This document shows, in pieces, positions 17,440-46,810 of a stretch of 64,000 nt of DNA. The stretch lies in contig NZ_CP114786.1 of NCBI RefSeq assembly GCF_027359675.1, positions 1,240,001 to 1,304,000 of the forward strand, given 5' to 3'. Each line of letters opens with the position of its first letter. Position 1 is the first letter of the stretch. The DNA is from Roseibium sp. Sym1. Its GTDB lineage: Bacteria > Pseudomonadota > Alphaproteobacteria > Rhizobiales > Stappiaceae. Both the position numbers and the translations under genes were made by a program. The notes under the pieces were generated by a model. The model ran no database searches and was not told the origin of the DNA. It saw only the letters and a list, made by a program, of their open reading frames with translations.

Positions 17440-17961
17440 ATGTCGAAAGAAGCTTCGGTCGCACCCAAGGAACGGGTGAACATCAAATACAAGCCGGCAA
17501 CAGGTGATGCCAAAGAGGAAATCGAGCTGCCGCTGAAAATGGTCATGCTCGGCGACTACACGCAGCGCCCTGACGACACGCCAATCGAAGACCGGACGCT
17601 CATCAACATCAACAAGGACAATTTCAACGAGGTCATGAAAAGCCATGATCTCAGCCTGGATCTGGCCACGGAAAACAAGCTGGTCGACACGCCGGAAGGC
17701 GAGGAACCGGACAATCTGGCGGTGTCCCTGAAGTTTCAGAACCTGAGCGATTTCACCCCGGAATCGATCGTGCGCCAGACACCCGAGCTCAACAAGCTGC
17801 TCGAGCTGCGTGAAGCCCTGGTATCGCTCAAGGGCCCGCTTGGCAACGTCCCGGCCTTCCGCAAGGCAATCCAGGGCGTTTTGGGCGACGAAGCGGCGCG
17901 CGAGAAACTTCTGGCGGAGCTGACCAATGCGACCGGTGGTTCGGAAGACAAGTCCGAGTGA
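17440..17961 (+). CDS. tssB: T6SS sheath small subunit TssB (VipA)
   Basis: 173 aa, forms the contractile sheath with TssC. Family blocks are KERVNIKYKPATGDA near residue 10, PLKMVMLGDYTQ near 31, the LININKDNF segment and FTPESIVRQTPEL-LLELREAL near 104-125. The length is standard. GGGGAC precedes the ATG. It is followed by tssC after 53 bp. A diverged TssB-like domain is found again in the protein encoded at 34059-35804. Confidence 0.97.
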   Translation: MSKEASVAPKERVNIKYKPATGDAKEEIELPLKMVMLGDYTQRPDDTPIEDRTLININKDNFNEVMKSHDLSLDLATENKLVDTPEGEEPDNLAVSLKFQNLSDFTPESIVRQTPELNKLLELREALVSLKGPLGNVPAFRKAIQGVLGDEAAREKLLAELTNATGGSEDKSE

Positions 17962-18014: not shown

Positions 18015-19496
18015 ATGACAGACACCGACGCACAGCAAGACGCCGCGGCACAGACCGAAGAGCTCGACGCGTCTCTTCTGGACCAGATCCTTCAGGAGAC
18101 CAAGCTCACGCCCGCCGATGACGGTTACGACGTCGCCCGCAAGGGCGTGGCCGCCTTCATTTCCGAACTTCTGAAACCTTCGGCAGGCGGCCAGGTGAAT
18201 GGCGCCGCAGTCGACATGATGATCGCGGAAATCGACCAGAAACTCTCCACCCAGGTCGACCAGATCCTGCACCACGACGATTTCAAGAAAATGGAATCGG
18301 CCTGGCGCAGCCTGAAATTCGTCATCGACCGGACGGACTTCCGCCAGAACATCAAAGTCGAGATGATGAGCGTCACCAAGGACGAGCTTCTCGAAGACTT
18401 CGAGGACAGCCCGGAAGTCGTCAAGTCCGGCCTCTACAAGCATATCTACACGGCGGAATACGGTCAGTTCGGCGGCCAGCCGGTGGGCGCGATCGTTTCC
18501 AACTACGATTTCGGGCCGAATGCTCCGGACATCAAGCTGGCCCAGTATTGCGCCAGCGTCGGCTCCATGTCGCATGCGCCGTTCATCGCCGGCGCCTCGC
18601 CCGCCATGTTCGGTGTCGACAGCTTCGAGGAGATCCCGAACCTCAAGGACATGGAATCGATCTTCGAGGGCCCGAAATACGCCAAATGGAACTCCTTCCG
18701 CGAATCGGAGGATTCCCGCTATTTCGCCCTGGCCATGCCGCGCTTCATGCTGCGCACGCCCTATGGCCCGGAAACGTCCCCGGTCAAGGCCTTCAACTAC
18801 GAAGAGGAGGCCGACAGCAACAGCGACAACTACCTTTGGGGCAACGCTTCCTTCGCGCTGGCGACCAAGCTGACCGACAGCTTCGCCAAGTATCGCTGGT
18901 GCCCGAACATCATCGGACCGCAGTCCGGCGGCGCCGTCGAGGACCTGCCGGTGCACACGTTCGAGGCCATGGGTCAGCTGCAGTCCAAGATCCCGACCGA
19001 GGTTCTGGTATCGGACCGCAAGGAATACGAGCTCGCCGAGCAGGGCTTCATCTCGCTGACCATGCGCAAGGGCAGCGACAATGCCGCCTTCTTCTCCGCG
19101 AATTCCGTGCAGAAGCCGAAATTCTTCGGCAACTCCCCGGAAGGCAAGGACGCCGAACTCAACTACAAGCTCGGCACGCAGCTGCCCTACATGATGATCA
19201 TCAACCGCCTGGCGCACTACATCAAGGTGCTGCAGCGCGAGAACATCGGTAGCTGGAAGGATCGCGGCGAGCTTGAATCCGAGCTCAACAAGTGGATCCG
19301 CCAGTATGTGTCCGACCAGGACAATCCCTCCGCCGACGTCCGGTCCCGCCGGCCGTTGCGCAAGGCGGAGATCAACGTGTCGGATGTCGAGGGCGAACCG
19401 GGCTGGTACAGCGTTTCCATGGCGGTGCAGCCGCACTTCAAATACATGGGGGCGGATTTCACCCTGTCCCTGAAGGGCAAGCTGGACAAGTCCTGA
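18015..19496 (+). CDS. tssC: T6SS sheath large subunit TssC (VipB)
   Basis: 493 aa, with the normal family length. Conserved stretches include ILHHDDFKKMESAWRSLKFV (about 89-108), FGVDSFEEI, RFMLRTPYG, WGNASFALA and the C-terminal ADVRSRRPLRKA/YSVSMAVQPHFKYMGADF segments. With TssB it builds the sheath whose contraction propels the Hcp tube. A strong hairpin lies between this gene and tssE, perhaps setting the high sheath:baseplate expression ratio. Confidence 0.97.
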   Translation: MTDTDAQQDAAAQTEELDASLLDQILQETKLTPADDGYDVARKGVAAFISELLKPSAGGQVNGAAVDMMIAEIDQKLSTQVDQILHHDDFKKMESAWRSLKFVIDRTDFRQNIKVEMMSVTKDELLEDFEDSPEVVKSGLYKHIYTAEYGQFGGQPVGAIVSNYDFGPNAPDIKLAQYCASVGSMSHAPFIAGASPAMFGVDSFEEIPNLKDMESIFEGPKYAKWNSFRESEDSRYFALAMPRFMLRTPYGPETSPVKAFNYEEEADSNSDNYLWGNASFALATKLTDSFAKYRWCPNIIGPQSGGAVEDLPVHTFEAMGQLQSKIPTEVLVSDRKEYELAEQGFISLTMRKGSDNAAFFSANSVQKPKFFGNSPEGKDAELNYKLGTQLPYMMIINRLAHYIKVLQRENIGSWKDRGELESELNKWIRQYVSDQDNPSADVRSRRPLRKAEINVSDVEGEPGWYSVSMAVQPHFKYMGADFTLSLKGKLDKS

Positions 19497-19526: not shown

Positions 19527-19566
19527 ACAGGTGCCGCCCCGGGACACGTCCCGGGACCGGTGCCTG
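19527..19566 (+). terminator. Strong intra-operon hairpin after tssC
   Basis: Inverted repeat with perfect outer ACAGG/CCTGT and inner CCCGGGAC/GTCCCGGG pairing around a two-base loop, followed by TTTTGGGG. It sits 30 bp after the tssC stop and 45 bp before the tssE start. It could be a partial terminator or an mRNA-stabilising 3' end for the sheath transcript. Confidence 0.6.
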
Positions 19567-19611
19567 TTTTGGGGTCTGGCAGGACCCTCGTTGGATGGAG
19601 AACTCTTCCGG

Positions 19612-20025: not shown

Positions 20026-20059
20026 GACGCTCGAGCGGAACCGGGGGCACATAGCGGGC

Positions 20060-25516: not shown

Positions 25517-25634
25517 CGGAACTTAACTTCGCCATGGTCTGCATGGCTGCATTTTGTGCTACGAATTGCGAATCACTCGGTAGCTGGCTGCGGGTGCCGA
25601 ATGACGGGTTTTGCGAGATCAGCGGAGATTGGCC

Positions 25635-26972: not shown

Positions 26973-26980
26973 TCCGAATC

Positions 26981-27892: not shown

Positions 27893-27901
27893 GGGAGAGC
27901 G

Positions 27902-30900
27902 ATGTTCCGCACCTATTTCGCTTCCCTGTTCCGGCTGGCTCCGCTCTTCGTCCTGCTGGTCCTGATCCTGATCTCGGTCGCCGTCCTGCTTGTGGGGGAC
28001 CTCCTCACGATCGCCGGGGTCACCCCGTTTGAAAAACTGGCGCCGCGCGTCATCGTGGCCGTCGTCCTCATCCTCGGCTTCTTTGTCATCACCTTCCTGC
28101 GTCACCTGCTGACCCGGCGGGCGAATGCCAAGCTGATCAATTCGATGCTCGCCAATGACGAACTCGTCTCCATGGGCGGCGACATGTCCGCGGACGAGGT
28201 CGAGCTGATCCGGGAACGGTTCGAAAGCGCCCTGACGACCCTGCGCGACAATCCGGTCGAGGGCGCCGGGTCGAGGAACTACCTGTTCGAGCTGCCCTGG
28301 TACATCATCATCGGCCCGCCGGGGACCGGCAAGACGACCATCCTGCGCAATTCCGGACTGGACTTCCCGCTGGCCGAAGGCGGGCACGAGGCGATCCAGG
28401 GTGTTGGCGGCACGCGCAATTGCGACTGGTGGATCTCGAACGAATCCGTCCTGATCGATACGGCCGGGCGCTACACCACCCAGGACGTCAACCAGGGCAT
28501 CGATTCGGCGGCCTGGAACGGCTTTCTCGAGCTGCTGCTGAAACACCGCCAGCGCCGCCCGATCAACGGGGTCCTGCTGGCCGTCAGCATCGAGGATGTT
28601 GCTCTGGCCAGCGAGGCGGAGCGCAAGCAGCAGTCGGAGATCCTGCGGCAGCGGCTGCGCGAGCTGCATCGGGCATTCGGCCTGCGCCTGCCGGTCTACC
28701 TGATGTTCACCAAATGCGACCTGATCGCCGGGTTCGACGAGTATTTCGACACGCTCCGGGAGGCCGACCGCCAGCAGGTCTGGGGTGTCACCTTTCCGTT
28801 TGACGAACAGCAGGTCACCGTCGGCCCCGCTTTCGAGACCGGCTTTGTCGACCTCGTGGCCCGCCTGGAACGCCATCTGCCCGAAAAGCTCTCCGAGGAA
28901 CGCAACAACGGCCGGCGCTGCCGCATCTTCGGATTTCCGCATGAGTTCGGCAGCCTCGGCAGCGTCCTCAGGGATTTCGTGACCGATGTGTTCCGGCCGA
29001 CCCGCTACGAGGCCCAGCCGCTGCTGCGCGGGGTCTACTTCACCTCCGGCACGCAGGAAGGCACGCCGTTTGACCGACTGCTGGGCGCCATGGGGCGCAG
29101 CTTCTCACTGGCCGCAAGCCAGCAGCCGCCCCTCAGCGGCCAGTCGAAGGCCTATTTCATCAAGAAGCTGCTCACGGACATCGTCTTTCCCGAGCAGAAC
29201 CTGATCGGCAAGAACCGCAAGCTGGAGCGGCGGCTGGCCGCGTTCTATGGCGGTGCGATCGTGGCGCTCGGCGCGTTTGTCGTCGGCCTGATCCTCTATT
29301 GGTCCGCCGGCCTCAGCCAGGCCATCAATGTCGCGGAAGGTGCCACGAAAAACGCCGACAAGGTGCGCATTCTCAAGGCGGAGGCAGACCAGAACAGGTC
29401 GTTGGTCAACCTGCTGCCGACGCTCGACGCCGCCAGGGAAATGCGGGACGAGATCGAACAGGACTCCGGCTGGCTGACATCGACACCGGTCAGCATCGAG
29501 GCCCAGTCCGTGCTCTATCCGGCGGCGGAACGGACCTACGACAACCTGCTCAAGGAATATCTGCTTCCGTCGATCAGCTCGCGGCTCGAAGCCCAGATCC
29601 AGCTTGTTTCAACGGCCTCCAACGGCAACAACGCCCTGCTCAGGGACCAGCTTCAAACCTACCTCATGCTGACCACCGGCGAGAACTACGATGCCAGCAA
29701 GGTCCGTGCCGCGCTGCGGGCGCAGAACGAGGCAACCTTTGTGCTCAAACCGCAGGACCGGGCGCAGATGCAGGTCCATATGGACAACCTGATGAAGCTG
29801 CTGCCGATAAAGGCCGCGCTCTCGCCCTCCGAACTGCCGATCCTGCAGCAGGCCCGCAACCGGATCCAGAAAGCGCCGCAGACCACCGACATCTACAACC
29901 GCATGGTCCAGGACGCGGCGCAGCGCTACCAGTTGCCACCGATCAACATCGTGCGCACGCTCGGCTCCACATCGCTCTACGTCGACACCGCCACGGCCGG
30001 TGGACGGTCGATCATACCGGGGCTCTACACCAAGAACGGCTTCTACAACTTCTTCCTGGCACGCCTGCCCGAATATATCCGCGATTCCATGGGCAGCGAC
30101 TGGGTGCTCGGCAATTCCGTCAACCGGACCACCTACAACCAGGTCGCCAACAAGATCGTCAAGCAATATACCGACGACTACATCAAGGCCTGGAAGGAAG
30201 GCACCGCCCATATCCAGGTGGTGGAGATCGGCTCGCTCGGCCGGGCGCAGACCGTTCTGGAGGAACTGTCCTCGCCCAGCACGCCGCTGACCAACATTCT
30301 CAACATCCTGAGCGAAAACACCCAGCTGCCGCTGCCGGGGGACCAGCCAAGCCAGGCGGGTGCCGCCGCCAATGCCGCCGCGGGCGCGGCGGGTGCCGCG
30401 GCCGGCTCGGCCGGTGCCCAGGCGGCCGGTCCGGTCAGTGGCCTGGTGGACTCCGCGAAACAGGCCTCAGCCAAGGCCGCTGTCGAAGCCGCCTTCGGCG
30501 ACAGTCCCTGGCCGGGCGTCGCCATCGGGGACGCATTCAAACCGCTGACCAACCTGGTCGACCCGAACAGCACGAATTCGCTCGACAAGGTGTTGCAGCT
30601 GTTCGGCGACCTTTACGGCAACATCGCCGGCATCAATTCGGCCCCGGACCCCAGCAAGGCCGCGTTTGATTCCGTCAAGAAGCGTATCGAGAACCCGCAG
30701 AGCGACAGCTTTTCCTCGCTGCAGGCGGAGGCGGCCACCAAGCCGGAACCTGTCCGTTCCCTGGTGCTGTCGATCGTGAACAACACGCGCGGCCTGCTCA
30801 ACAAGTCGGCCTATGTCTACATCAACCGGACCTGGCAGAACGAAGTCGTGCCCTCCTGCACAAGCATCATGGCGGGCCGCTACCCGTTCTTCCAGGACGC

Positions 30901-31516
30901 CAAGGACGACATCACCCTGCAGGACTTCACCGACCTGCTCGGCCCGGCCGGCGTTGTCGACAAGTTCTTCACCGACTACGTCTCGCCCTTCGTCAATGTG
31001 CGTGGACGCCAGCTTGTCGAGATCGACAACCAGGGTGCAAATCTCGGCCTGTCCCAGGAAGGCCTGGCGCAACTCGCGACGGCGCAGACCATCCGGGACG
31101 CGTTCTTCCCGAAAGGCGCTTCGAGCCCGGAGGCCAAGTTCACCATCCGGCCGAGCCTTTTGGATCCGGGCGCGCTCAAATCGACGCTGAAGATCGACGA
31201 CACAACCATCACCTATCGTCACGGGCCGGTCCGGGGCACCGATTTCTCCTGGCCCAGCCAGGCGGACGGCAGCAGCGCGGAGCTGTCGATCACCCTGCTG
31301 GACAATTCGAGCAACACGGAAAAGAAAAGCGGCACCTGGGCCATATTCCGGCTCCTGACCGAATCCCGATTGTCCTCCGTGCGCGGCCGTGACCAATTCG
31401 TGTTCGGCATTTCGAAGGACAAGTCCAAGGCCAATTTCGCGCTGAATGCCGGCAGTGTGACCAATCCGTTCAACCTGGGTCTCTACACGGCCTTCCGCTG
31501 CCCGCCTTCGCTTTAG
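27902..31516 (+). CDS. tssM: T6SS inner-membrane protein TssM (IcmF)
   Basis: 1204 aa, full length. Two N-terminal transmembrane helices (about 10-32 and 48-68) are followed by a cytoplasmic NTPase domain with Walker A GPPGTGKTT (138-146) and the DTAGRYTTQD block. A third helix lies around 443-465 (GGAIVALGAFVVGLILYW), then the large periplasmic region ending in the TssJ-binding beta domain. An Ala/Gly-rich stretch near 820-850 is a likely linker. It starts 9 bp after tssL. Confidence 0.96.
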   Translation: MFRTYFASLFRLAPLFVLLVLILISVAVLLVGDLLTIAGVTPFEKLAPRVIVAVVLILGFFVITFLRHLLTRRANAKLINSMLANDELVSMGGDMSADEVELIRERFESALTTLRDNPVEGAGSRNYLFELPWYIIIGPPGTGKTTILRNSGLDFPLAEGGHEAIQGVGGTRNCDWWISNESVLIDTAGRYTTQDVNQGIDSAAWNGFLELLLKHRQRRPINGVLLAVSIEDVALASEAERKQQSEILRQRLRELHRAFGLRLPVYLMFTKCDLIAGFDEYFDTLREADRQQVWGVTFPFDEQQVTVGPAFETGFVDLVARLERHLPEKLSEERNNGRRCRIFGFPHEFGSLGSVLRDFVTDVFRPTRYEAQPLLRGVYFTSGTQEGTPFDRLLGAMGRSFSLAASQQPPLSGQSKAYFIKKLLTDIVFPEQNLIGKNRKLERRLAAFYGGAIVALGAFVVGLILYWSAGLSQAINVAEGATKNADKVRILKAEADQNRSLVNLLPTLDAAREMRDEIEQDSGWLTSTPVSIEAQSVLYPAAERTYDNLLKEYLLPSISSRLEAQIQLVSTASNGNNALLRDQLQTYLMLTTGENYDASKVRAALRAQNEATFVLKPQDRAQMQVHMDNLMKLLPIKAALSPSELPILQQARNRIQKAPQTTDIYNRMVQDAAQRYQLPPINIVRTLGSTSLYVDTATAGGRSIIPGLYTKNGFYNFFLARLPEYIRDSMGSDWVLGNSVNRTTYNQVANKIVKQYTDDYIKAWKEGTAHIQVVEIGSLGRAQTVLEELSSPSTPLTNILNILSENTQLPLPGDQPSQAGAAANAAAGAAGAAAGSAGAQAAGPVSGLVDSAKQASAKAAVEAAFGDSPWPGVAIGDAFKPLTNLVDPNSTNSLDKVLQLFGDLYGNIAGINSAPDPSKAAFDSVKKRIENPQSDSFSSLQAEAATKPEPVRSLVLSIVNNTRGLLNKSAYVYINRTWQNEVVPSCTSIMAGRYPFFQDAKDDITLQDFTDLLGPAGVVDKFFTDYVSPFVNVRGRQLVEIDNQGANLGLSQEGLAQLATAQTIRDAFFPKGASSPEAKFTIRPSLLDPGALKSTLKIDDTTITYRHGPVRGTDFSWPSQADGSSAELSITLLDNSSNTEKKSGTWAIFRLLTESRLSSVRGRDQFVFGISKDKSKANFALNAGSVTNPFNLGLYTAFRCPPSL

Positions 31517-31524
31517 AACGCATC

Positions 31525-32283
31525 ATGGCCAGTCACCCCGGCGGATATTTCGGAAAGCGTCCTCATGAGCGGGACTTTGTCTTCGACGGCCTGACGGCCG
31601 GCATGACGGATGCCTGGGCCGGACTGATCTCGGATTGGGTCACAAGCATCCGCAACGACCTGCCGCAGACCTGGCAGCAGCTCTATTTCGAGGCACCCGC
31701 CTGGCGCTTCGCCATCGAGCCGGGGCTGTTTGGTCAATCAGGCTGGTGTGGCCTCCTGTCCGCCTCCGCCGACGCGCTCGGCCGGTGCTTTCCGCTGACC
31801 GTGCTCATACCCCTGGAGGAAACGGTCCATCACCTGGTGTTCCGGGCCGCGGTGGAAATCACACTCGACGCGCTGGAGATGCAGACCATGGCCTTCATCG
31901 AGGGTCACCTGTCCCGCGAGGACTTCAACGACGTCATTGCCGAACAGGCCTCCCTTCTGGCCCGTGTGCCGGAAGGCGCCGGAGCGCACAAGCCCATGCA
32001 ACTGGACCCGGACGCGATGGCGCTGAGGATCAGCTTCGCGCGTACTGACGGGGAGGCGATCATCGCGGACGACCCTCTCGTGTGTGCCGCCACTCAAGTC
32101 CCGGCACCCGAAGTGCCCCTGTCCTACTGGTGGCAGGACGGCGGTGCGACACGGCCGCCGGAGCTGTGTATCTGGAGAGGCTTGCCAAAGGGCCGCGAAA
32201 CTGGTGGATTCTTTACCGGCGAATGGGAACGCTTCGGCTGGCGGCGTGGCCGGATCGATCCGGACCTGATCCTGCGGCCCTAG
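31525..32283 (+). CDS. tagF: T6SS-associated protein TagF
   Basis: 252 aa. It opens with GYFGKRPHERDFVFDGL, the conserved TagF N-terminus, followed by WAGLISDWV and a C-terminal YWWQDG region. In Pseudomonas, TagF is a post-translational repressor of the T6SS; in Agrobacterium it is fused to PppA. Here it is separate, directly after tssM and before the phosphatase/kinase pair, consistent with a repressor role. Confidence 0.9.
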   Translation: MASHPGGYFGKRPHERDFVFDGLTAGMTDAWAGLISDWVTSIRNDLPQTWQQLYFEAPAWRFAIEPGLFGQSGWCGLLSASADALGRCFPLTVLIPLEETVHHLVFRAAVEITLDALEMQTMAFIEGHLSREDFNDVIAEQASLLARVPEGAGAHKPMQLDPDAMALRISFARTDGEAIIADDPLVCAATQVPAPEVPLSYWWQDGGATRPPELCIWRGLPKGRETGGFFTGEWERFGWRRGRIDPDLILRP

Positions 32284-32315
32284 GTGACGGACAGGACCCT
32301 CAAGGGAGACCATGC

Positions 32316-33014
32316 TTGGAGACGTTGACCACTTTACCTGCCGTTCCTCTCTTAAGGTCCGAGGCTGTCACCCGTCAGGGCCCCAACCATCCGGTCAACC
32401 AGGACAGCCATTTCGCCGATCCTGCCTGTGGCCTGTTCACCATCGCGGACGGAATGGGCGGCCACAGGGCCGGTGATGCCGCCAGCCAGGCAACTGTCGG
32501 CGCCGTCGCACAGCTGGTCAACCTGCCGGAAACGAGCCATGACAACCAGCTGGCCGCGCTGGAAGCCGCAATTACCCAGGTCAACGGCGACCTGTACGCG
32601 GCTTATCTTGCCGCCCCCGATCAGGACATCTCCGGAACCACCAGTCTCAGCCTCCTCATCAGCGGCCCCTATGCCAGCTGCCTCTGGGCAGGGGATTCCC
32701 GGCTCTACCTGCTGCGCCAGCAGCATCTGTTCCTGATTTCCGAGGATCACGCGGACGCGGCCGGCCGGTTGACGGCCGCTGTCGGCATCGGTGACGCGCT
32801 CGATTTCGGTCGCAGAACCCTGGAACCGATGGCCGGGGACATCTTCATTCTTTGCACTGACGGCCTGTTGAAAGGCATGGACGAAACCACCCTGGCCAAC
32901 ATGGCCGCCGAGGGAACCTACGGATTGGCGGACAGGCTGATTGCCCGCTCCGTCGCCGGCGGGTCCAATGACGACATCACGGTCATTACGGTCTGGGCGG
33001 AAGCGGATGAATGA
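32316..33014 (+). CDS. pppA: PP2C-family Ser/Thr phosphatase of the T6SS (PppA-like)
   Basis: 232 aa. The start is TTG at 32316, 7 bp after GGGAG; the nearby ATG at 32312 is in another frame. All PP2C motifs are present: NQDS near the N-terminus, IADGMGGHRAGD, the GDSRLYLL block, CTDGLLKG and SNDDITVI. PppA reverses the kinase-dependent phosphorylation of Fha and switches the apparatus off. It overlaps the kinase gene by 8 bp. Confidence 0.92.
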   Translation: METLTTLPAVPLLRSEAVTRQGPNHPVNQDSHFADPACGLFTIADGMGGHRAGDAASQATVGAVAQLVNLPETSHDNQLAALEAAITQVNGDLYAAYLAAPDQDISGTTSLSLLISGPYASCLWAGDSRLYLLRQQHLFLISEDHADAAGRLTAAVGIGDALDFGRRTLEPMAGDIFILCTDGLLKGMDETTLANMAAEGTYGLADRLIARSVAGGSNDDITVITVWAEADE

Positions 33015-34083
33015 CGCGGCCGAAACACGGGACGACGCCTCCCCCAAGGGGGCAACGGCAGCGGAGACCGCCGAAGTCGGCCCCGGCACCGTCCTGAAGG
33101 ACAGGTTCCTGCTGTTGAAGGAAATCGGCAAGGGGGGCCTGTCAACGGTCTACAAGGCCCGCGACCTGGTGGCCGCCAAGGCCGGTCTCGCGGACCCGAA
33201 CGTGGCCATCAAGGTCATGCGCGCGGCCCCGAATGTCGATCCGGACGTCATCGCGCTAATGCACAGGGAAGCCCGCCGCCTCAGGGATCTGGTCCATCCG
33301 AACATCGTGCGCGTCTACGACATGGACCGGCAGGACGACATTCACTTCATGGTCATGGAACTGCTGGAGGGGCAGACCTTGTCGCAGCTTCTGCGCAAGG
33401 CGCCCGGCCAGTGCCTGCCGCCCGCTCAGCTTGCCCGCCTTGTGACCGATCTGTCTGCGGCGCTGTCATGCGCCCACGCCAGCGGCATCATCCACGCGGA
33501 CCTGAAACCCGGCAACGTCTTCGTGAAAAACAACGGCGAAGCCAAACTGATCGACTTCAACATTGCCTACCCGATCGCGCGGCCGATCAAGACCCGTGAA
33601 GAGGACACGGTGGTCATTCTCGCCCGGTTCGGCGCGGTGACACCGGCCTATGCCTCGCCGCAACGCCTGAAAGGGGCCGAGCCCTGCGAGGCGGACGACG
33701 TTTATTCGCTCAGTGTGATCACCTATCTGGCCCTGTGCGGCCAGCGCCCCTATGGCAAGGCAAACGCAATCGAAGCCGAAAAGGAAGGCCTGAAGGCGGC
33801 ACGCCCCGACGGCCTGTCATGGATGCGCTGGCGGGCGCTCAGGGCCGGTCTCTCGCTTGACGACGACGGCCGGACGACGTCCGCGCGGCGCTTTGCCGAG
33901 GGGTTCTGTTCTCCCTCTCCTATGACGCTTGCCAGACACATGCTGAGCGACTTCTTCGATGCACCCGATCCTCCGCCGCGGGACGTCCCGCAGACGGACC
34001 CGGCCCAGGCAGAGACAGGGCAGACGGCAACGGGCCGGCAGCCCGCCGCCCCGGACGATCAGCCACCCGACGCGGGCAAATAG
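33007..34083 (+). CDS. ppkA: Ser/Thr protein kinase of the T6SS (PpkA-like)
   Basis: 358 aa, cytoplasmic Hanks-type kinase (about 30-290) and a Pro-rich C-terminal tail. Glycine loop IGKGGLSTVYKA, lysine in VAIKVM, catalytic loop HADLKPGN and PAYASPQRL are present. The DFG motif reads DFN (LIDFNIAYP) and HRD reads HAD. Unlike Pseudomonas PpkA, it has no transmembrane helix or periplasmic sensor. It overlaps the phosphatase gene, and its last 25 bp overlap the convergent gene. Confidence 0.88.
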   Translation: MNDAAETRDDASPKGATAAETAEVGPGTVLKDRFLLLKEIGKGGLSTVYKARDLVAAKAGLADPNVAIKVMRAAPNVDPDVIALMHREARRLRDLVHPNIVRVYDMDRQDDIHFMVMELLEGQTLSQLLRKAPGQCLPPAQLARLVTDLSAALSCAHASGIIHADLKPGNVFVKNNGEAKLIDFNIAYPIARPIKTREEDTVVILARFGAVTPAYASPQRLKGAEPCEADDVYSLSVITYLALCGQRPYGKANAIEAEKEGLKAARPDGLSWMRWRALRAGLSLDDDGRTTSARRFAEGFCSPSPMTLARHMLSDFFDAPDPPPRDVPQTDPAQAETGQTATGRQPAAPDDQPPDAGK

Positions 34084-35804
34084 AAGGCATGCTGCTGGCC
34101 CGCCGCCCAGCCGGCGCGCACGACGGCGGAGACGCCGATCAGATCCTGGTCCTCCGCATCCACACGCCTGACCTCGAAGACGACCTGACCGGACAGCGAC
34201 CTGCTCAGCTCGTCGAGATGACGGGTGACCGCGCTTTCCCGTTCCTCCGCGCTCTGGCCGGCCGTCACCGCGCCGCCCAGGGCCTCCTGGAACAGCGAAA
34301 ACAGGCGGGACACGAGAAGGGCCTGATCCAGCGATCCCCGGCCTTCCTTGCCCGGCTTGACGGTCACGCCGCGCCGGAACACGAGGTCGGTCCGGTTTGC
34401 GACGCCTTCCAGGACATTGATGCCGCACTGGGCCAGTGACGGCGCCAGTCCATGACCTGCCAGAAACCGTGTCGCCGTGGCCACGACACGTCCCATGGAG
34501 CTGGCCTCGGCCACTTCCAGCGCATCGAAATCGACGGGTGTGCCCACGGGCAGGCGCGGGAACACTTCGGAGCCGAGCTGGTGAAGGATCTGGGCGAGCG
34601 CAATCCAGGCTCCTGGCGCGAACAGGGCCGGAAAGCCCTCGCCCGCCGCGCTCAGGCGCGCCTCGTTCCAGAACAGCGCCACATGGGACGCGCGATCGCT
34701 TTCGCGCAATCCCTGAAACGTCTCGAAGCCCGGTTCGTCCAGAAGCTGGTGCGCAGCCTCCAGGCCACCGACCTTTTCACCGGGAACGCCGGCGAACTCC
34801 GCAGCAAGGTTCAGCAGGCCAACAGTGTCGCTGTCGGCACATTCGCCGGCCAGGACCTTGACCTTCTCCGCGTCCGCGCTGGCAACCCCGGTCTGGTTTG
34901 CAAACAGGACAATGTCGTAGAGCTCGGCCTGCAAGGCCCCTGACGGTCCGCCGAGCAGGTCCGACAGGCTCTCGCGGTCCAGGTCACAGTCGATTTGCAG
35001 CAGGTAGAGTTCGAGCGGCAGGCCCGTTTCAAGTTCGCTCAGCAGCAGTTTCAGGCTGTGCCAGTTCTGCAGCACCGTGTGCAGCTTGCCCTGGGAGAAG
35101 AACAAGGCTGCCTGGGCCGCCTTGAGAGCCGCGACGGGAGACGCTGCCTCCGCTGCGGCCGGCTTGGAGTAGGTCGCCTTTTCCTCGCGCAGCGTGTTCT
35201 GGATGAAGGCATCAACGGCCGCCTTCGCCTTGCTGCTGCTGCTGCTGCCGGACGGTTCGGATTTGTCCCCGGTCATGTCGATCATGGAAAACAGCGAATC
35301 CAGTCCGTCTGTCCCGCCCCCTTCCGGCTTGGGCGCGCCGCTGTCGTAGTCCGGAAGCGGTTCGGACGTTTCCGGAGCCGCCGGACGTCCGGCCGAGCGC
35401 AGCGTTTCCAGAGCCTTGTCGTAGCGCTGGCCCTGCGCGGCGAGACGGTCCGGATCCTCACCGGCCGCGTCCAGGTCCTGAACAAACCGGAACCCGCTCA
35501 GGATCCTTGCCGGGCGCAGGTCCTTCAGGCTTGAAAAGGATATGCTCTCCTCGATCGCGGAGGGATGCGAGCCGAGCAGATTTTCGGCCGTCACGCTGAA
35601 GGCCGGCTTGTTCGGCTCAAGGATCTCGGCCGTGTCCAGCCCGGTGATGTTGAGCGCGGCGCCGCGCGAGGCCAGGCCGAAATCACCCGCGATCAGCACG
35701 CGGAAGGGCGGTGCCGGCGACACGGGCGTGGACTGCGGGCCTTCCTTGCCCAAACCAATTGAGAAACTTGCGATTCCACCCTTGTTTTCGTCCTGCCCGC
35801 TCAT
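34059..35804 (-). CDS. TssB-TssC-like fusion protein (contractile sheath paralogue)
   Basis: 581 aa from the ATG at 35804, preceded by GGGGGTGA. Residues about 30-105 resemble TssB: PFRVLIAGDFG corresponds to PLKMVMLGDY, and SISFSSLKDLRPARILSGF to SLKFQNLSDFTPESIVRQ. A variable acidic linker (about 125-225) follows. From about 230 the sequence resembles TssC: LHTVLQNWHSLKLLLSEL against FKKMESAWRSLKFVID, and FQGLRESDRASHVALF against WNSFRESEDSRYFALA. True tssB and tssC are also present, so this is an extra, diverged, single-chain sheath-like protein. Function unknown; it could be a cap, seed or regulator of the sheath. Confidence 0.8.
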   Translation of the reverse strand: MSGQDENKGGIASFSIGLGKEGPQSTPVSPAPPFRVLIAGDFGLASRGAALNITGLDTAEILEPNKPAFSVTAENLLGSHPSAIEESISFSSLKDLRPARILSGFRFVQDLDAAGEDPDRLAAQGQRYDKALETLRSAGRPAAPETSEPLPDYDSGAPKPEGGGTDGLDSLFSMIDMTGDKSEPSGSSSSSKAKAAVDAFIQNTLREEKATYSKPAAAEAASPVAALKAAQAALFFSQGKLHTVLQNWHSLKLLLSELETGLPLELYLLQIDCDLDRESLSDLLGGPSGALQAELYDIVLFANQTGVASADAEKVKVLAGECADSDTVGLLNLAAEFAGVPGEKVGGLEAAHQLLDEPGFETFQGLRESDRASHVALFWNEARLSAAGEGFPALFAPGAWIALAQILHQLGSEVFPRLPVGTPVDFDALEVAEASSMGRVVATATRFLAGHGLAPSLAQCGINVLEGVANRTDLVFRRGVTVKPGKEGRGSLDQALLVSRLFSLFQEALGGAVTAGQSAEERESAVTRHLDELSRSLSGQVVFEVRRVDAEDQDLIGVSAVVRAGWAAGQQHAFYLPASGG

Positions 35805-35809
35805 GTCGG

Positions 35810-36160
35810 TCACCCCCGGTTGATTACGGTGAGGTCTGCTTCGATCGACAGGAATGCCAGGGTGGCCCTGTCGATCACGATTTTTCCGTCAACCTCGTAG
35901 CCGGTCTTCCGGTCGGCCGCGTGCCCGGAGACACTGAACACGAGGGCGCTGCGCGTATTGACGGATGCGAGCCCGACCGGTGTCACGGTCAGGTCGATGG
36001 TCAGCGGTTCGCCGGTGCACATGGTTTCCTGGGAGCGGCCCAGGCGCGTGGCGGAGCTGTTGCCTTCGGCGTAGACCTGTGGCGAGCGCGTCCTCAAATA
36101 GTCATAGACGCAACTGCGCAACGCATCGGGTTCCCGTTGGGCCGGTTTCCAGGTTGCCAT
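35810..36160 (-). CDS. Small hypothetical protein between vgrG and the sheath-like fusion
   Basis: 116 aa with no signal peptide or membrane helix. The second half is a run of predicted beta strands (PLTIDLTVTPVG, SALVFSVSG, GKIVIDRATLAFLSIEADLTV). I do not recognise the family. It ends 5 bp before the start of the TssB-TssC-like gene and follows vgrG by 99 bp on the same strand, so it is probably a T6SS-dedicated accessory: a spike completion protein, adaptor or partner of the sheath-like protein. Confidence 0.7.
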   Translation of the reverse strand: MATWKPAQREPDALRSCVYDYLRTRSPQVYAEGNSSATRLGRSQETMCTGEPLTIDLTVTPVGLASVNTRSALVFSVSGHAADRKTGYEVDGKIVIDRATLAFLSIEADLTVINRG

Positions 36161-36259: not shown

Positions 36260-37789
36260 TTACGCGGACCCGTCGCTGATCTGGAACACGACCCCGGAAG
36301 CCGTTTTGGTGCGATGGGCGACATTCTGGTTGCTCGATGTCACCGGGTTCATCTGTTCTCCGTTGGACACGGCCCCCAGCACCACCGGACGATCCGGATC
36401 GCCCTGGAGGAACCCGATCAGCACTTCGGTTCCCTTGAGCAAGGTGGAATGTGACCCATAGCCGTCGCCGCCGCCATAAGGTTCCATCTTGCGCACCTCA
36501 TGGCTGGCCTTGCCGTTCAACAGACCGCTTTCCTCGTCCAGTATCCGGACCTTGTAACGTCCGTAGTCATCCAGTTCGGCACGGCTGCCGTCGGACTCGC
36601 CGTCGATAAAGGCGACCATGTAACCGGAAATGACCGGCTTCGGTGTCGCCACGGGCGGGCGGTAGCCCTTGTCGAACGGCACGCAGACGAAACGGTTGAT
36701 GTAGGGGGCCGGCTCCCTGCCGGTCGAACTGAACCCGATCGGCGTCGACACCGTGCAGGCATGTTCGGCCGAGATGACGATGTAAAGGCCGTCCAGATCC
36801 GAGATCGGATGATCCTTGAGCTGGAAGAACAGGCCGGGGCGGAGGTTGGGTATGTTGCATTCGCCGAAAAATTGCAGGCGCTCGCCCTCGACCTGGTCGA
36901 CCCGGCGCTTGGCGATGAACTGGCCGTCGGACACGGTCGGGTAGTTTTCTCCGTAGAGCGTCGTCACGCCCTGCCCGGTGAAAGACGTGTTCTCCGAGAC
37001 CGACAGGGACACCTTGGGCGTGATTTCATTGTATTCGCGCAACGCGACCGTGCCGCTCATGGTCTCGTAGTTCGCGTTGAAGGACCAGACACCGAACGTA
37101 TCGGTTCCCATGACCTGGTTCTTGCTGCGGTAGGGCAGCTCATCGGTAATCTGGTTGCCGCTCAGCTTGGTGAAATGTTCCTTGCGGTCGCCGAAGATGA
37201 CCTTCTCCCTGTCGCCGGACTGGTCGAAGGCAAAATAGATGCCGAACCGCTCGCACATGCGGCAGATGAAGTTGAGATCGCTTTCCCGGTACTGAAACAC
37301 GAAATCGAGCTTCGGGTAGTCGGAGGAGGACACCAGCAGCTCGGACTGGATCTGTCTGGCCACGCGGTCGGAGGCGGTGTTCGAATCGGACTTGTTGGCA
37401 TCCGACAGCTCCGCCTGGATGATGTCGACGACGGTGACATCCTTGTCGGTGCCATATACCTGGTTCTGCGCGCTGTGCCGCAGCATCGCCAGTTCCGGTT
37501 CTATGACCACCGAGTAGCTGAATTCCCGGTTGGGTGTCGGATCACCGGTGCGGGCACTGCCGATCACGCCTGCAACCTCCAGGTTTTCCCCGGCACGCTC
37601 CAGTTTGAGACGCGCGGTTTTTCCAAGCAGGCTCTCCAGATCGATCGGCTTCTTGGACAAGAGGGAAATGTCGAACCGATAGGTTTGTCCGAGAGCCTCC
37701 CGGCCGGTCATGCTTTCGACATAGATTTCCTCGCCGGGATCCCCCGGCAGTTCAATTGTCATGTAGCCATGCGATGTATCAGCGCTCAT
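36260..37789 (-). CDS. tssI: T6SS spike protein TssI (VgrG), short form
   Basis: 509 aa. The gp27-like base covers about 1-380 (YRFDISLLSKKPIDLESLLGK, QYRESDLNFICRMCERFGIYFAF), followed by the OB-fold region with GRYKVRILDEE and VLIGFLQGDPDRPVVLGAV. The chain stops soon after TKTASGVVFQ, where most VgrGs continue into a long beta-prism spike, and there is no effector extension. The other frames just downstream do not continue the protein. It is divergent from hcp. Confidence 0.93.
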   Translation of the reverse strand: MSADTSHGYMTIELPGDPGEEIYVESMTGREALGQTYRFDISLLSKKPIDLESLLGKTARLKLERAGENLEVAGVIGSARTGDPTPNREFSYSVVIEPELAMLRHSAQNQVYGTDKDVTVVDIIQAELSDANKSDSNTASDRVARQIQSELLVSSSDYPKLDFVFQYRESDLNFICRMCERFGIYFAFDQSGDREKVIFGDRKEHFTKLSGNQITDELPYRSKNQVMGTDTFGVWSFNANYETMSGTVALREYNEITPKVSLSVSENTSFTGQGVTTLYGENYPTVSDGQFIAKRRVDQVEGERLQFFGECNIPNLRPGLFFQLKDHPISDLDGLYIVISAEHACTVSTPIGFSSTGREPAPYINRFVCVPFDKGYRPPVATPKPVISGYMVAFIDGESDGSRAELDDYGRYKVRILDEESGLLNGKASHEVRKMEPYGGGDGYGSHSTLLKGTEVLIGFLQGDPDRPVVLGAVSNGEQMNPVTSSNQNVAHRTKTASGVVFQISDGSA

Positions 37790-38048
37790 TGGGAATTCCT
37801 CCTGGGCAGGCCTGACCGGAATGTATCTGACGGCAGTCTAGCGATCCTTGCCAGACAAGTGTGACGCTTCGGCAATACCGGCTCCCGATCCTTCTGGTAC
37901 CCGACAATTGGGCGAGGCCGTGTGCCGGGTCAATTCTCCAGTTTCTTCACAGCAGCTCCAACGACAGCCGCATATGGGCCATCTTGCCGTTAATTTCCGG
38001 CAATTTCACCCCGCCTGGACCAGCTTTCCCTGCCCTCCTTGCGATCTT

Positions 38049-38064
38049 TGTGATGCAGATCACA
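38049..38064. promoter_or_regulatory. Perfect CRP/FNR-family palindrome
   Basis: TGTGATGCAGATCACA is a perfect match to the CRP consensus TGTGA-N6-TCACA, with the additional inner AT/AT symmetry. It lies 150 bp upstream of the sigma-54 promoter of hcp and about 260 bp upstream of the vgrG start on the other strand. Established knowledge of CRP family operators supports binding; which regulator binds here is inference. Confidence 0.75.
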
Positions 38065-38100
38065 CAAGTTGCGTAGAGTCTTTTGCGCACTCCAGGGGAA

Positions 38101-38122
38101 ACTGTGAAGTTTTCTGCACAGT
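38101..38122. promoter_or_regulatory. Candidate upstream activator site for the sigma-54 activator
   Basis: ACTGTG-N10-CACAGT, a perfect 6-bp inverted repeat about 75 bp upstream of the -24 element, a usual distance for enhancer binding. A second inverted pair, TGTCCA (38139-38144) and TGGACA (38167-38172), lies closer. Either could be the binding site of the Fis-type HTH of the activator encoded at 41787-43412. Confidence 0.45.
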
Positions 38123-38195
38123 GTCACATTTTAACGATTGTCCAGTTAACCATCCAACTTTCTGTTTGGACAGTGTTTTCCCGAAATCCGCCGAC

Positions 38196-38211
38196 TTGGC
38201 ACGGTGCTTGC
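38196..38211 (+). promoter_or_regulatory. Sigma-54 (-24/-12) promoter of hcp
   Basis: TTGGCACGGTGCTTGC matches the sigma-54 consensus at every conserved position. The -24 GG (38198-38199) and the -12 GC (38210-38211) are exactly 10 bp apart. Transcription would start near 38223, about 60 bp before the hcp ATG. A sigma-54-dependent activator is encoded in the same cluster. Confidence 0.88.
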
Positions 38212-38285
38212 CATTCAGTCGGCAGCCGGCGGCGATCTGCACCGGCGGATCGAATGTCCCGGATTTTTTTTCAAGTGAGGGTATC

Positions 38286-38798
38286 ATGTCCAACATCGCA
38301 TATATCACCGTCAAGGGCGCAACCCAGGGCGACATCACCTCTGACGCAACCACCGCCGACAGCATCGGCAACCTGTGGCAGGAAGGCCATGAGGGCCAGT
38401 CCCTGGTCTACCACTTCGAGCAGAACGCCGTCGTGCCGCGGGATCCGCAGTCCGGCTCCATCATCGCCACCCGGCGCCACATGCCGACCACCTTCATGAA
38501 GCCGGTCGACAAGGCCACCCCGCTGTTGTGGCAGGCACTGGCCACCGGCGAGGCCCTGGAAATCGAGGTGCATTTCTGGCGCACCGCCACCACGGGCGTG
38601 CAGGAGCACTACTTCACCATCAAGTTCACCGACGCGGTCCTGGTCGAAGGCAAGACGATCCTGCCGGACGTCAATGACGAAGCCAACGCGTCGCGCGGCG
38701 ACACCGACAAGTGGTCGTTCACCTACCGCAAGGTCGACTGGACCCACGAAAAGGCCGGCACCAGCGCTTCCGACGACTACCGCGCTCCGGTCACCTGA
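38286..38798 (+). CDS. tssD: T6SS tube protein TssD (Hcp)
   Basis: 170 aa. The start at 38286 gives MSNIAYITVKGATQGDI, the Hcp N-terminus; the longer open frame upstream is non-coding promoter DNA. Family blocks include VYHFEQNAVVPRD, FMKPVDKATPLLWQAL and HYFTIKFTDAVLVEG, then WSFTYRKVDWTH. Hcp hexamers form the expelled inner tube and can carry effectors. It is expressed alone, from its own sigma-54 promoter to a terminator just after the stop. Confidence 0.96.
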   Translation: MSNIAYITVKGATQGDITSDATTADSIGNLWQEGHEGQSLVYHFEQNAVVPRDPQSGSIIATRRHMPTTFMKPVDKATPLLWQALATGEALEIEVHFWRTATTGVQEHYFTIKFTDAVLVEGKTILPDVNDEANASRGDTDKWSFTYRKVDWTHEKAGTSASDDYRAPVT

Positions 38799-38820
38799 TC
38801 GCGACAAGCCGGTTGAAATG

Positions 38821-38861
38821 CGAACCGCTTCGGTATGTCCGGGGCGGTTCGTTTTTGTTTT
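38821..38861 (+). terminator. Rho-independent terminator after hcp
   Basis: CGAACCGC (38821-38828) pairs with GCGGTTCG (38844-38851), directly followed by TTTTTGTTTT. It lies 22 bp after the hcp stop, making hcp a single-gene transcript separate from tssH. Confidence 0.85.
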
Positions 38862-38932
38862 ATCAATGTTTTTCGGGCAAACGAATGTCTTGAAAACAAG
38901 AATGCCTGTCATGAATTCAGTTTAAGACCATC

Positions 38933-41701
38933 ATGGAGGGCACAAGTTTCAAGACATGGGGTGGCCTCTTGATTGACCTCGATCTCCGCCGTTTGATCGG
39001 TCGTTTGAACAACTATTCACGCCGGTCACTGGAAGGCGCCGCAGGGCTGGCGGTCACACGGGGACATTTCGAGGTCACGATCGAGCATCTTCTGCATGTC
39101 TTTGCGGAAGACAGTCAGCACGATCTGCAGAGCGCCTGCCGTCACTTCGAAATCGATCCGGCTCCCTTCAAAAAAGCACTCGATTCAACCCTGGAAGGCC
39201 TCAAACGCGGCAACCAGGGCCGGCCCGCCTTTTCACCGCTCCTGATTGAATGGATTTCGGATGCCTGGCTGGTCAGCTCCGTCGAGCTGGACCTTGACCA
39301 GGTGCGGTCCGGCAGCCTGCTGGCCACGGTCTTCGCCAAGCCCAACCGGTTCGGCGACGAGCGCTGGCTCGGCCTTCTGGACGCCATGTCCTTTGCCGAG
39401 TTGAAGAAGCACTTCAAGGACATCGTCAGCCAGTCCGAGGAAACCACCGCGGGCCATGCCGCCCGTCCGGCGGTTTCCGGCGAAACCCCGGTGGACAAGA
39501 GGTCGGTGGCTCCGGGAATGGACCCCGACAGCGCTTTGGCCAGGTTCTGTACCAACTTCACCCAGCTGGCCCGCGACGGCAAGATCGACCAGGTGTTCTG
39601 CCGGGACCGGGAGATCCAGCAGATGATCGATGTGCTCGGCCGCAGGCGCAAGAACAACCCGATCTGCGTCGGCGAGGCCGGTGTCGGCAAGACAGCGGTG
39701 GTCGAGGGGCTGGCACGCAAGATTGCCGAAAACGATGTGCCCGACCTTCTGAAGAATGTCGAGCTGATCGGGCTGGATCTCGGCATGTTGCAGGCCGGCG
39801 CCGGCGTCAAGGGCGAGTTCGAGAACCGCCTGAAAGGCATCATCGACGAGGTCAAGGGGTCCGCAAAGCCGATCATCCTGTTCATCGACGAAGCCCACAT
39901 GCTGATCGGCGCCGGCGGCTCCGCCGGCGGCGGGGATGCCGCGAACCTTCTGAAACCGGCCCTTGCCCGGGGCGAGCTGCGCACGATCGCGGCCACCACA
40001 TGGAGCGAATACAAGAAATATATCGAAAAGGACCCGGCCCTGGAGCGCCGCTTTCAACTGATCAAGCTGGACGAACCGGGTCCGGACCAGGCCATCACCA
40101 TCATGCGCGGCCTGCGCGGCGCCTACGAAAAGAACCATGGCGTCTATATCCGGGACAACGCGGTCGTCGCCGCGGCCAAGCTGTCCGCGCGCTATATTTC
40201 CGGCCGCCAGCTGCCGGACAAGGCCGTCGACGTGCTCGACACCGCCTGTGCCCGGGTCAAGTTGTCCCTGTCGTCAAAGCCCTTCGTCATCGAACTGAAG
40301 GAAAAACGCCTCGGCGAACTGCAGCGCGCCCTGGACTCCCTGCGCCGGGACCACAAGGCCGATTTTTCCGCCGACGATCTGGAAGTTTCCGAAATCGAGC
40401 AGGACGTGGCCGACGCCGAAACAGCGATTGCGGAATTGACCGAGCGCTGGTCCCGCGAGAAGAAGCTGGTCGACCGGCTCCTGAAGATCCGCCACGAGCT
40501 TGGTCTCAGCCTGGAGCACGACAAGGCCCCGGAAGACACGGATGATGCCGGGGATGCCGAGCCGGACACCGCCACGACAGACGAAGCTGCCGCGGAAACG
40601 GAAGACACCACGGCGATCACCCCGGAAGACTACGCCAGGATCGCGGCCGACCTGAAGGCGGTTCAGAACGGAGATCCCCTGATCTCCTTCGAGGTCACCG
40701 AAGAGGCCATCGGACAGGTCATCTCGGACTGGACCGGCGTGCCGCTCGGCCGGATGGTCCAGGACGACGCGGACAGCGTCCTGTCTCTCGGCAACAAGCT
40801 GAAGGGCCGGGTGATCGGACAGGATCACGCCATCGATGCGGTCGACCAGGCGCTCAGGACCGCCAAGGCGGGCGTTCAGAACCCCGACGCGCCCATGGGA
40901 GTGTTCCTGTTTGTCGGTCCCTCCGGTGTCGGCAAGACCGAACTGGCGACGGCCATAGCCGACCAGCTGTTCGGCGGCGAACGCTTCCTCATCTCGATCA
41001 ACATGTCGGAATTCCAGGAAAAGCATACCGTATCGAAGCTGGTTGGCTCGCCACCGGGCTATGTCGGTTACGGCGAAGGCGGTGCCCTGACCGAAGCCGT
41101 ACGCCAGCGTCCCTATTCTGTCGTCCTCCTGGACGAGGTCGAAAAGGCGGACCTGGAAGTCATGAACCTGTTCTACCAGGTCTTCGACAAGGGTGTCCTG
41201 TCCGATGGCGAAGGCCGGCTGATCGATTTCAAGAACACGATCGTCGTCCTGACCAGCAACCTGGCAACGGATGTCCTGACCGAAATGGGCAGCTTGCCGG
41301 AACCTCCCGGCCGGGACGAAATGGTGGCCGGCTGCCGGCCCATCCTGAGCGCGCATTTCAAGCCGGCACTGCTGGCACGCATGCAGATCGTGCCGTTCTA
41401 TCCGCTGATCGGCTCGCCGCTGGAAAAGATCGTCAGGTTGAAGCTGGACAAGATCGGCAAGCGTCTTCGGGAAAACCAGAAACTGGAGCTTGGATATTCC
41501 GACGGCGTGGTCCAGTCTATTGCGGCCCGATGCACGGAAGTGGAAACCGGTGCGCGCAACATCGATCACATTATCAACCGGACGGTATTGCCGGAACTTT
41601 CAACGGAACTCCTGACCCGGATGGGGGCGGAAGACGCCGATTTCAAGAAAATCGACATCGGCATGGGAGATGGCGGTGCATTCAGTTACGCTCTCTCCTG
41701 A
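38933..41701 (+). CDS. tssH: T6SS sheath-recycling ATPase TssH (ClpV)
   Basis: 922 aa from the ATG at 38933. A TTG at 38969, nearer the conserved LIDLDLRRLIGRLN, is a possible alternative because no clear ribosome site precedes the ATG. Two AAA+ modules are visible: Walker A GEAGVGKT near 246 with Walker B FIDEAHML, and Walker A GPSGVGKT near 662 with LLDEVEKA. An acidic insert (about 540-565) interrupts the middle region. ClpV disassembles contracted TssBC sheaths. Confidence 0.95.
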   Translation: MEGTSFKTWGGLLIDLDLRRLIGRLNNYSRRSLEGAAGLAVTRGHFEVTIEHLLHVFAEDSQHDLQSACRHFEIDPAPFKKALDSTLEGLKRGNQGRPAFSPLLIEWISDAWLVSSVELDLDQVRSGSLLATVFAKPNRFGDERWLGLLDAMSFAELKKHFKDIVSQSEETTAGHAARPAVSGETPVDKRSVAPGMDPDSALARFCTNFTQLARDGKIDQVFCRDREIQQMIDVLGRRRKNNPICVGEAGVGKTAVVEGLARKIAENDVPDLLKNVELIGLDLGMLQAGAGVKGEFENRLKGIIDEVKGSAKPIILFIDEAHMLIGAGGSAGGGDAANLLKPALARGELRTIAATTWSEYKKYIEKDPALERRFQLIKLDEPGPDQAITIMRGLRGAYEKNHGVYIRDNAVVAAAKLSARYISGRQLPDKAVDVLDTACARVKLSLSSKPFVIELKEKRLGELQRALDSLRRDHKADFSADDLEVSEIEQDVADAETAIAELTERWSREKKLVDRLLKIRHELGLSLEHDKAPEDTDDAGDAEPDTATTDEAAAETEDTTAITPEDYARIAADLKAVQNGDPLISFEVTEEAIGQVISDWTGVPLGRMVQDDADSVLSLGNKLKGRVIGQDHAIDAVDQALRTAKAGVQNPDAPMGVFLFVGPSGVGKTELATAIADQLFGGERFLISINMSEFQEKHTVSKLVGSPPGYVGYGEGGALTEAVRQRPYSVVLLDEVEKADLEVMNLFYQVFDKGVLSDGEGRLIDFKNTIVVLTSNLATDVLTEMGSLPEPPGRDEMVAGCRPILSAHFKPALLARMQIVPFYPLIGSPLEKIVRLKLDKIGKRLRENQKLELGYSDGVVQSIAARCTEVETGARNIDHIINRTVLPELSTELLTRMGAEDADFKKIDIGMGDGGAFSYALS

Positions 41702-41786
41702 TCAGCGAATGGCATGAGGGGAAGTCGGCGGGAAACGGATCCGGCCCACTTTCGGGGAACGTCCACGAAAGACGGTTGCAGACGCT

Positions 41787-43412
<1,626 letters not shown>

Positions 43413-43465
43413 GGTCATCAGGGGCTGACAAGGCCACCGGCTGAGGAATACGGGGCCCTGCAGAT

Positions 43466-46256: not shown

Positions 46257-46285
46257 GTAACAACTCGGCTCGTCAGGTCAAAACT

Positions 46286-46705: not shown

Positions 46706-46810
46706 TTCCGGCCTCCGGCTGCTCCCAATTGGTATAAACCATGCCTGATCGGGCAACCCAAGCTGTTTGTACCGGAAGGTCCGGTTTTCCGGGTCTCCCG
46801 TGCCCGGCGG

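Follow-up and report, generated by a model that had tools for sequence, protein, structure and literature searches.

A divergent single-chain TssB-TssC paralogue encoded downstream of VgrG in a type VI secretion gene cluster of Roseibium

Introduction

The contractile sheath of the type VI secretion system (T6SS) is usually described as a single repeated TssB/TssC pair, and TssB and TssC donate terminal strands to neighbouring sheath subunits. The protein composition of its distal end was described as unclear (PMC5813253). Does a T6SS ever encode a further sheath subunit, and what might it do? The question is raised by a 64,000-nucleotide stretch of Roseibium sp. Sym1 (NZ_CP114786.1, positions 1,240,001 to 1,304,000; hereafter the window), in which one gene, tentatively referred to as BCX (protein P0001), was proposed in an earlier reading of the letters alone (the sequence-only reading) to encode a single-chain TssB-TssC-like protein within a T6SS that also has a normal TssB and TssC. 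Here we analyze BCX, its relatives and its gene context, and weigh the roles that it may have.

BCX is homologous to both sheath proteins

The BCX frame lies on the minus strand at 34059-35813 if read from a GTG, or at 34059-35804 from an ATG that is common to its close relatives (MSGQDE/MTGQDE...); it encodes 581 residues from the ATG, has no internal stop and a GC3 of 0.80, and is the sole match to BCX within its own genome. Taken alone, P0001 stays below the curated cut-offs. It matched PF05591 at E=0.014 (15.7 bits, gathering cut-off 24) and the NCBIfam models of TssC and TssB at E=0.036 and E=0.26 respectively, while it had no match to PF05943 or PF18945 (VipB_2) at E<=10, to PDB chains by phmmer, or in the PHROGs and PADLOC scans; PF18945 was also absent from six relatives at E<=1. 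These sub-threshold single-sequence matches were resolved using an alignment of the BCX family.

A profile of 14 BCX members, searched against all PDB chains, listed 19 sequences with E<=1. T6SS sheath chains account for 17 of these, all at E<=1.4e-5. Eight of them are TssC chains (E 5.2e-28 to 3.8e-13), aligned within profile positions 176-539, and nine are TssB chains (E 2.7e-9 to 1.4e-5), aligned within positions 23-119, one reaching to 168; the two non-sheath matches are unrelated proteins (E=0.039 and 0.66). Across the whole PDB, only T6SS sheath chains were matched at E<1e-4, with TssC and TssB on separate regions of the family profile. By hhalign, the family scored 99.8% against TssC (E 9e-28, over nearly the whole TssC length) and 97.5% against TssB (E 3e-11), or 91.7% and 94.6% respectively when the six most distant members (L096-L101) were left out. 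Scores did not exceed 0.4% against 13 other T6SS families (profiles of 1-12 sequences) or 0.3% against reversed or column-shuffled TssB and TssC. Whole-genome profile searches using BCX also match ordinary TssC and TssB genes.

Individual members bridge the gap to the curated families. For PF05591, L098 (34.8 bits) and L100 (28.1) pass the cut-off, L096 (15.7) and L099 (13.6) fall below it, and L097 and L101 were not listed; among the genus members, two are just above (24.8, 24.3) and two just below (23.0, 21.7). The PF05943 cut-off is passed by L096, L098, L099, L100 and L101, with L097 below, so that the distant members L098 and L100 exceed the Pfam cut-offs for VipB and VipA alike. Protein databases hold at least 26 relatives of P0001, the same 26 being retrieved by the single query and by the alignment A2; two members carry the name “type VI secretion system contractile sheath small subunit”, while others are called hypothetical.

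BCX is a divergent single-chain TssB-TssC paralogue, a conclusion that we regard as practically certain. The proposal of the sequence-only reading was borne out by the PDB family profile, by hhalign and by the predicted fold, and the comparison with VipA and VipB that it had called for returned both sheath families by profile and a sheath fold by structure prediction. The motifs that it quoted (LIAGDFG and WHSLKLLLSEL) are present in BCX, and the genes at 17440-19496 that it took for canonical sheath genes are both normal by Pfam.

Predicted fold and conserved segments

BCX is made of a TssB-like part (approximately residues 9-138), a linker (139-190), and a TssC-like part (approximately 165-581). 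The TssC likeness had been placed from about residue 230; the likeness holds, while its start is nearer 165. The linker is acidic as described, though mildly so, with 10 D/E and 3 K/R among its 52 residues. An AlphaFold2 model of BCX (pLDDT 67) has a sheath subunit fold, and its best matches by Foldseek and VIA are VipB/TssC. In this model, residues 485-581 form two helices and three strands; the hhalign alignment extends to the end of TssC, and the predicted C-terminal domain resembles the PF18945 kind.

We cut BCX by hand into 13 segments and took the mean column identity of each over 14 diverse members. The TssB-like core, the TssC-like core and the C-terminal handshake-like domain have values of 0.49, 0.47 and 0.42 respectively. 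The N-terminal arm (residues 9-20) is at 0.55 though it is predicted to be disordered, and hhalign sets it, weakly, opposite the N-terminal strand of TssB. The length of the N-terminal arm linker was measured since an excess might mark a ring that does not contract: lengthening the VipA linker by at least two residues is described as blocking contraction (PMC5797969). By MAFFT columns it is 24-28 residues (mode 26) in BCX, compared to 23 in 34 of 37 TssBs and 22 in the remaining three, i.e., about three residues longer; by the hhalign register the excess is one residue.

The best conserved of the 13 segments is a 13-residue block in the linker between the two halves (0.66, vs. 0.32 and 0.26 in its flanks). 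All 14 members share its pattern [LF]-[DE]-x-[LI]-[FL]-x-[ML]-[VIM], and hhalign superposes it on the N-terminal TssC segment SLLDQIL. The TssC1 helix of enteroaggregative E. coli that is bound by the ClpV N-domain is given as DSVYASLFEKINL, and for TssC peptides binding at 26 and 39 uM is described (PMC5048182). The BCX linker therefore retains what looks like a ClpV recognition helix, through which BCX may bind ClpV. This conserved motif is new evidence for a role of BCX in the sheath cycle.

Relation to TssCL and other fused sheath proteins

A fused TssB-TssC protein alongside intact TssB and TssC has been published before. TssCL of roseobacters, reported in 2022, is described as a protein of 1,684 residues in which a long linker and a single VipB domain accompany two VipA domains, of which one is almost identical to TssB (PMC9515649). 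Like BCX, it is an extra TssB-like plus TssC-like protein in an alphaproteobacterial T6SS that keeps tssB and tssC, and a TssCL-type protein adjoins VgrG in Ruegeria conchae. Unlike TssCL, BCX combines a single divergent TssB-like part with a single divergent TssC-like part in only 581 residues. It accompanies a different TssC subtype and occupies a separate branch of the TssC tree; a second TssB-like region was not found in P0001 or in the relatives scanned. BCX is a smaller and differently built variant of a TssCL-like kind of protein, and not categorically new. We found no other report of such a protein in the open-licence literature that was covered, which excludes subscription journals.

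TssCL-type proteins of 1135-1167 residues were recovered by Pfam in two genomes (G021 and G029), and the Ruegeria conchae protein matches that of G029 by tblastn with 58% identity over 56% of the G029 protein. Four TssCL-type genes were seen beside VgrG (L092:3007-6411, L093:2505-6005, L181:11651-13636, and L184:15739-19149). Their order is TssB, a long acidic linker, a TssB-like part and a TssC-like part, and a version of 662 residues in G049 is without the leading TssB. The linkers in G021 and G029 repeat L-A-A-L-L-like motifs, and VipB_2 was not detected in these two proteins.

Compared to the TssB/VipA and TssC/VipB pair, BCX has homologous halves, the sheath fold, an N-terminal arm, the ClpV-helix-like motif and the C-terminal domain; it differs in being one shortened chain, in the loss of the RxPY, GG and K223 hallmarks of TssC (see Proposed role), and in the sub-threshold scores of P0001. 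Sheaths of phages, pyocins and extracellular contractile injection systems are single-chain as well, whereas BCX belongs by sequence to T6SS TssB/TssC and coexists with a two-chain sheath. In PVC and AFP, several sheath proteins are described within one machine (PMC8894135).

Full-length TssB-TssC fusions also place both proteins in one frame. We observed four of them, of 613-781 residues, in three other proteobacteria and in G033 (L186:1384-3453, L187:1227-3569, L188:1287-3395, and L094:9220-11058). Unlike BCX, those in G586, G630 and G753 are strongly canonical (TssC profile E<=1.7e-176, TssB E<=4.3e-27), and that in G033 matches Pfam VipB at E 3.9e-58. In G630, the 36 kb that hold TssK, L, A, E, F, G and VgrG contain no recognised sheath gene besides this fusion.

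Distribution and gene context

The window comes from a Roseibium-type genome (Hyphomicrobiales), the named relatives of which are Roseibium and Labrenzia. Among 101 relatives (its own genome included), BCX is present in 17, all of them among the 45 that have a TssC with VipB_2. The 30 TssC loci returned include 16 genomes with a TssC at least 86% identical to that of the window; all 16 have BCX, which sits 14-15 kb from the TssC match, and in one of them (G001) it is split across two contigs. The 17th genome (G040) has an intact BCX, a fragment of P116 (a 116-residue protein encoded next to BCX) and portions of the flanking regions; no TssA to TssM genes were found near its BCX, and the one TssC that it has belongs to a different type. 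In that locus (L095:8845-14505), most of the T6SS is gone and BCX lies between PppA and a fragment of a sigma-54 activator.

Six members were found outside the genus, five among 249 genomes of the order (G131, G143, G177, G236, G239) and one among 289 of the class (G336), both totals including the window genome. The order-level match in G230 is an ordinary TssB adjoining TssC and was dropped. At the phylum level, 87 of 398 genomes match the BCX profile. Of these matches, 29 loci (L112-L140) are ordinary TssB plus TssC; among the rest, frames were opened in G586, G630, G753, G250 and G271, and the others were judged by position and frame length. At most three candidates per genome were scored at the phylum level, and four to five in the order and class searches. 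A tandem second TssC beside the normal one was seen (L022, L023, L189 and L192) in genomes G088 and G083 (29-32% identical to the window TssC) and also in G250 and G271. Searching plasmids by tblastn with P0001 and L099 gave nothing at E<=1e-5; with L098, the annotated matches among the 30 of 76 records listed are all ordinary tssC. One EukProt entry contains a BCX with 71% identity, with a P116 sequence in front of it in one model, and is probably bacterial contamination and a misjoined gene model.

The window holds a complete T6SS. Two plus-strand blocks, one at 15566-34083 (TssA, B, C, E, F, G, FHA, TssJ, K, L, M, TagF, PppA and PpkA) and one at 37848-45019 (Hcp, ClpV, a sigma-54 activator and a further kinase), flank a minus-strand run of VgrG, P116 and BCX, the T6SS gene names being assigned from Pfam matches and gene order. 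Only 5 bases separate the P116 stop from the BCX ATG. P116 is full length and adjoins BCX in 16 of the 17 genus genomes and also precedes it in G131 and G239. In each of the 13 genus clusters opened, P116-BCX has VgrG upstream, with a gap between VgrG and P116 of about 0.1 kb in seven and 3.6-3.9 kb in six, and in G131 the three genes are mutually adjacent. P116 was also seen beside or near VgrG without BCX, with a TPR-like gene adjoining, in Rhizobium jaguaris (L183:11423-11782) and in G077 (L180:10180-11196); P116 may be a VgrG partner.

This recurrent order in the genus and in G131, together with the presence of P116 beside VgrG even without BCX, would fit a VgrG/P116-associated cargo, adaptor or loading factor built on a sheath-like scaffold. 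We consider this improbable: BCX has a complete predicted sheath fold and the ClpV-helix-like motif, no toxin, PAAR or adaptor domain was found in P0001 (Pfam, NCBIfam, PHROGs, PADLOC), and in G336 BCX adjoins TssA.

Evolution of BCX

Between the window and a related genome (G034), BCX is 74-75% identical, comparable to TagF (0.75) and below TssM and TssG (both 0.82), VgrG and TssK (both 0.90), P116 and TssB (both 0.91), and TssC (0.966). Three pairs give a dN/dS of 0.147, 0.132 and 0.273 for BCX, where dS is high and near saturation, and in a fourth pair the ratio is undefined; for TagF, three pairs give 0.125-0.27. BCX is under purifying selection, as loose as that on TagF. The loss of TssC invariants, and the intact copy in G040, which lacks most of the cluster, might be taken as signs of a decaying, functionless duplicate of the sheath genes. 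This explanation is very improbable, given these dN/dS values, the lack of internal stops in the 17 genus members (one split between contigs) and the six members outside, and the position of BCX on one well-supported branch that spans several families.

In a tree of the TssC part, in which long branches meet, the 14 BCX rows lie on one side of a branch (SH-aLRT 100) from 25 TssCs and four TssCL-type proteins. When L101 and the G033 fusion are removed, BCX groups with TssCL (support 83, not significant), and a tree that joins BCX to the window's own TssC lineage was not rejected (p-AU 0.10).

Proposed role

Our preferred reading, which we put forward only tentatively, is that BCX is an accessory single-chain sheath protomer, a minor ClpV-recyclable subunit that probably forms a ring at one end of the sheath. 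Its single chain fixes the ratio of TssB-like to TssC-like halves at 1:1, and it is encoded with VgrG and P116. In this view it would enter the TssB/TssC sheath as a specialised minor component and might form its ring at the baseplate/spike end, the side that gene order favours. The N- and C-terminal strands of BCX would be given to neighbouring sheath or baseplate subunits, and ClpV would later strip it off via the linker helix; an effect on sheath assembly or contraction is conceivable. The conserved N-terminal arm, C-terminal strand and acceptor-like domain suggest that BCX could be built into the sheath, while its fast evolution, the lost lattice residues and the tie to VgrG and P116 point to a minor position and not to the bulk.

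Several observations weigh against this proposal. RxPY and GG are conserved without exception in 26 TssCs, whereas RxPY is present in none of 14 BCX members and GG has no counterpart in the BCX profile alignments. None of the 14 has a lysine at the position of VipB K223, where 26 canonical TssCs have K in 19, R in one and another residue in six; VipB-K223A is described as assembling no sheath in V. cholerae (PMC5797969). (The D333 position in BCX is alignment-dependent and was not used.) Given these losses, BCX is unlikely to be the sole builder of a whole contractile sheath. BCX also evolves much faster than TssB and TssC, which is odd for a load-bearing ring, and the case for ClpV binding consists of one short motif. 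As to its occurrence, the profile found no BCX in four genomes with a TssC 65-75% identical to that of the window (G014, G049, G054, G077), and none was recognisable in the 64 kb read from the R. jaguaris plasmid cluster, which has T6SS core genes (TssC 81% identical), VgrG and P116. BCX is therefore fixed in this T6SS subtype within the genus and dispensable in close kin. The genome-wide search proposed by the sequence-only reading found TssC in 22 of the 23 BCX genomes, the other one (G236, 86% complete) having BCX and no TssC that we found. The spike-side role that had been argued from gene placement agrees with VgrG lying upstream in all 13 genus clusters opened; on the other side are the R. 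jaguaris cluster without a recognisable BCX, and G143, G177 and G336, which have BCX apart from VgrG, G143 and G177 having no recognised T6SS genes in the roughly 20 kb around BCX.

A more specific form of the proposal would make BCX a dedicated end-ring isoform, a single chain encoded with the spike. It would initiate or cap polymerisation of TssB/TssC, be incapable of adopting the contracted lattice itself, and undergo recycling by ClpV. The absence of a K223 equivalent and of RxPY, and an N-terminal arm linker one to three residues longer than that of TssB, are the reasons to suppose this inability; we hold this version to be possible, yet doubtful. If it is true, T6SS sheaths would be heteromeric, with positional identity.

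Second to the sheath-end subunit ranks a soluble regulator or decoy, i.e., a non-polymerising sheath mimic that competes for ClpV by means of its helix, or caps or poisons growing sheaths, and so limits their number or length. The sequence-only reading had named a decoy among its options, and we rate it as unlikely while taking it seriously. BCX evolves as fast as TagF, its TssC invariants and the lysine at K223 are lost, the ClpV-helix-like motif is its best conserved segment, and it was not found in the otherwise complete R. jaguaris cluster. However, BCX retains the conserved N-terminal arm and the handshake-like C-terminal domain, which a pure ClpV decoy would not need, and its gene belongs to the spike run, albeit in convergent orientation to PpkA.

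BCX is a concrete candidate for a position-specific or regulatory sheath subunit, and hints at specialised pieces that build one part of the sheath. Taken together, BCX and TssCL suggest that more than one T6SS subtype of Alphaproteobacteria retains a part of this sort.

Features of the locus

Table 1. BCX, its segments and associated T6SS genes in the window.
Feature	Position	Strand	Evidence
BCX, single-chain TssB-like/TssC-like protein, 581 aa	34059..35804	-	ORF, PDB family profile, hhalign, AlphaFold2 and fold search
N-terminal arm, residues 9-20, GGIASFSIGLGK	35745..35780	-	Column identity, hhalign
TssB-like domain, residues 32-138	35391..35711	-	PDB hmmsearch; PF05591 in relatives L098 and L100
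ClpV-helix-like linker motif (putative), residues 165-177, TDGLDSLFSMIDM	35274..35312	-	Conservation, hhalign, PMC5048182 peptide
TssC-like core, residues 223-484	34353..35138	-	PDB hmmsearch; Foldseek and VIA
C-terminal handshake-like domain and C-terminal arm (predicted), residues 485-581	34059..34352	-	AlphaFold2 secondary structure, hhalign
P116 (P0027), 116 aa, matches no known family	35810..36160	-	ORF, family search
VgrG, heads the VgrG-P116-BCX run	36260..37789	-	PF05954 E=4.2e-48
Canonical TssB	17440..17961	+	PF05591 E=1.9e-52
Canonical TssC	18015..19496	+	PF05943 E=1.8e-131, PF18945 E=2.1e-45
ClpV, presumed partner of the BCX linker motif	38933..41701	+	ClpB-type AAA domains; name from T6SS context

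At the edge of the T6SS, a ParA-like gene and its neighbour (45483-46756) are also kept in R. jaguaris, with 80% and 61% identity respectively.

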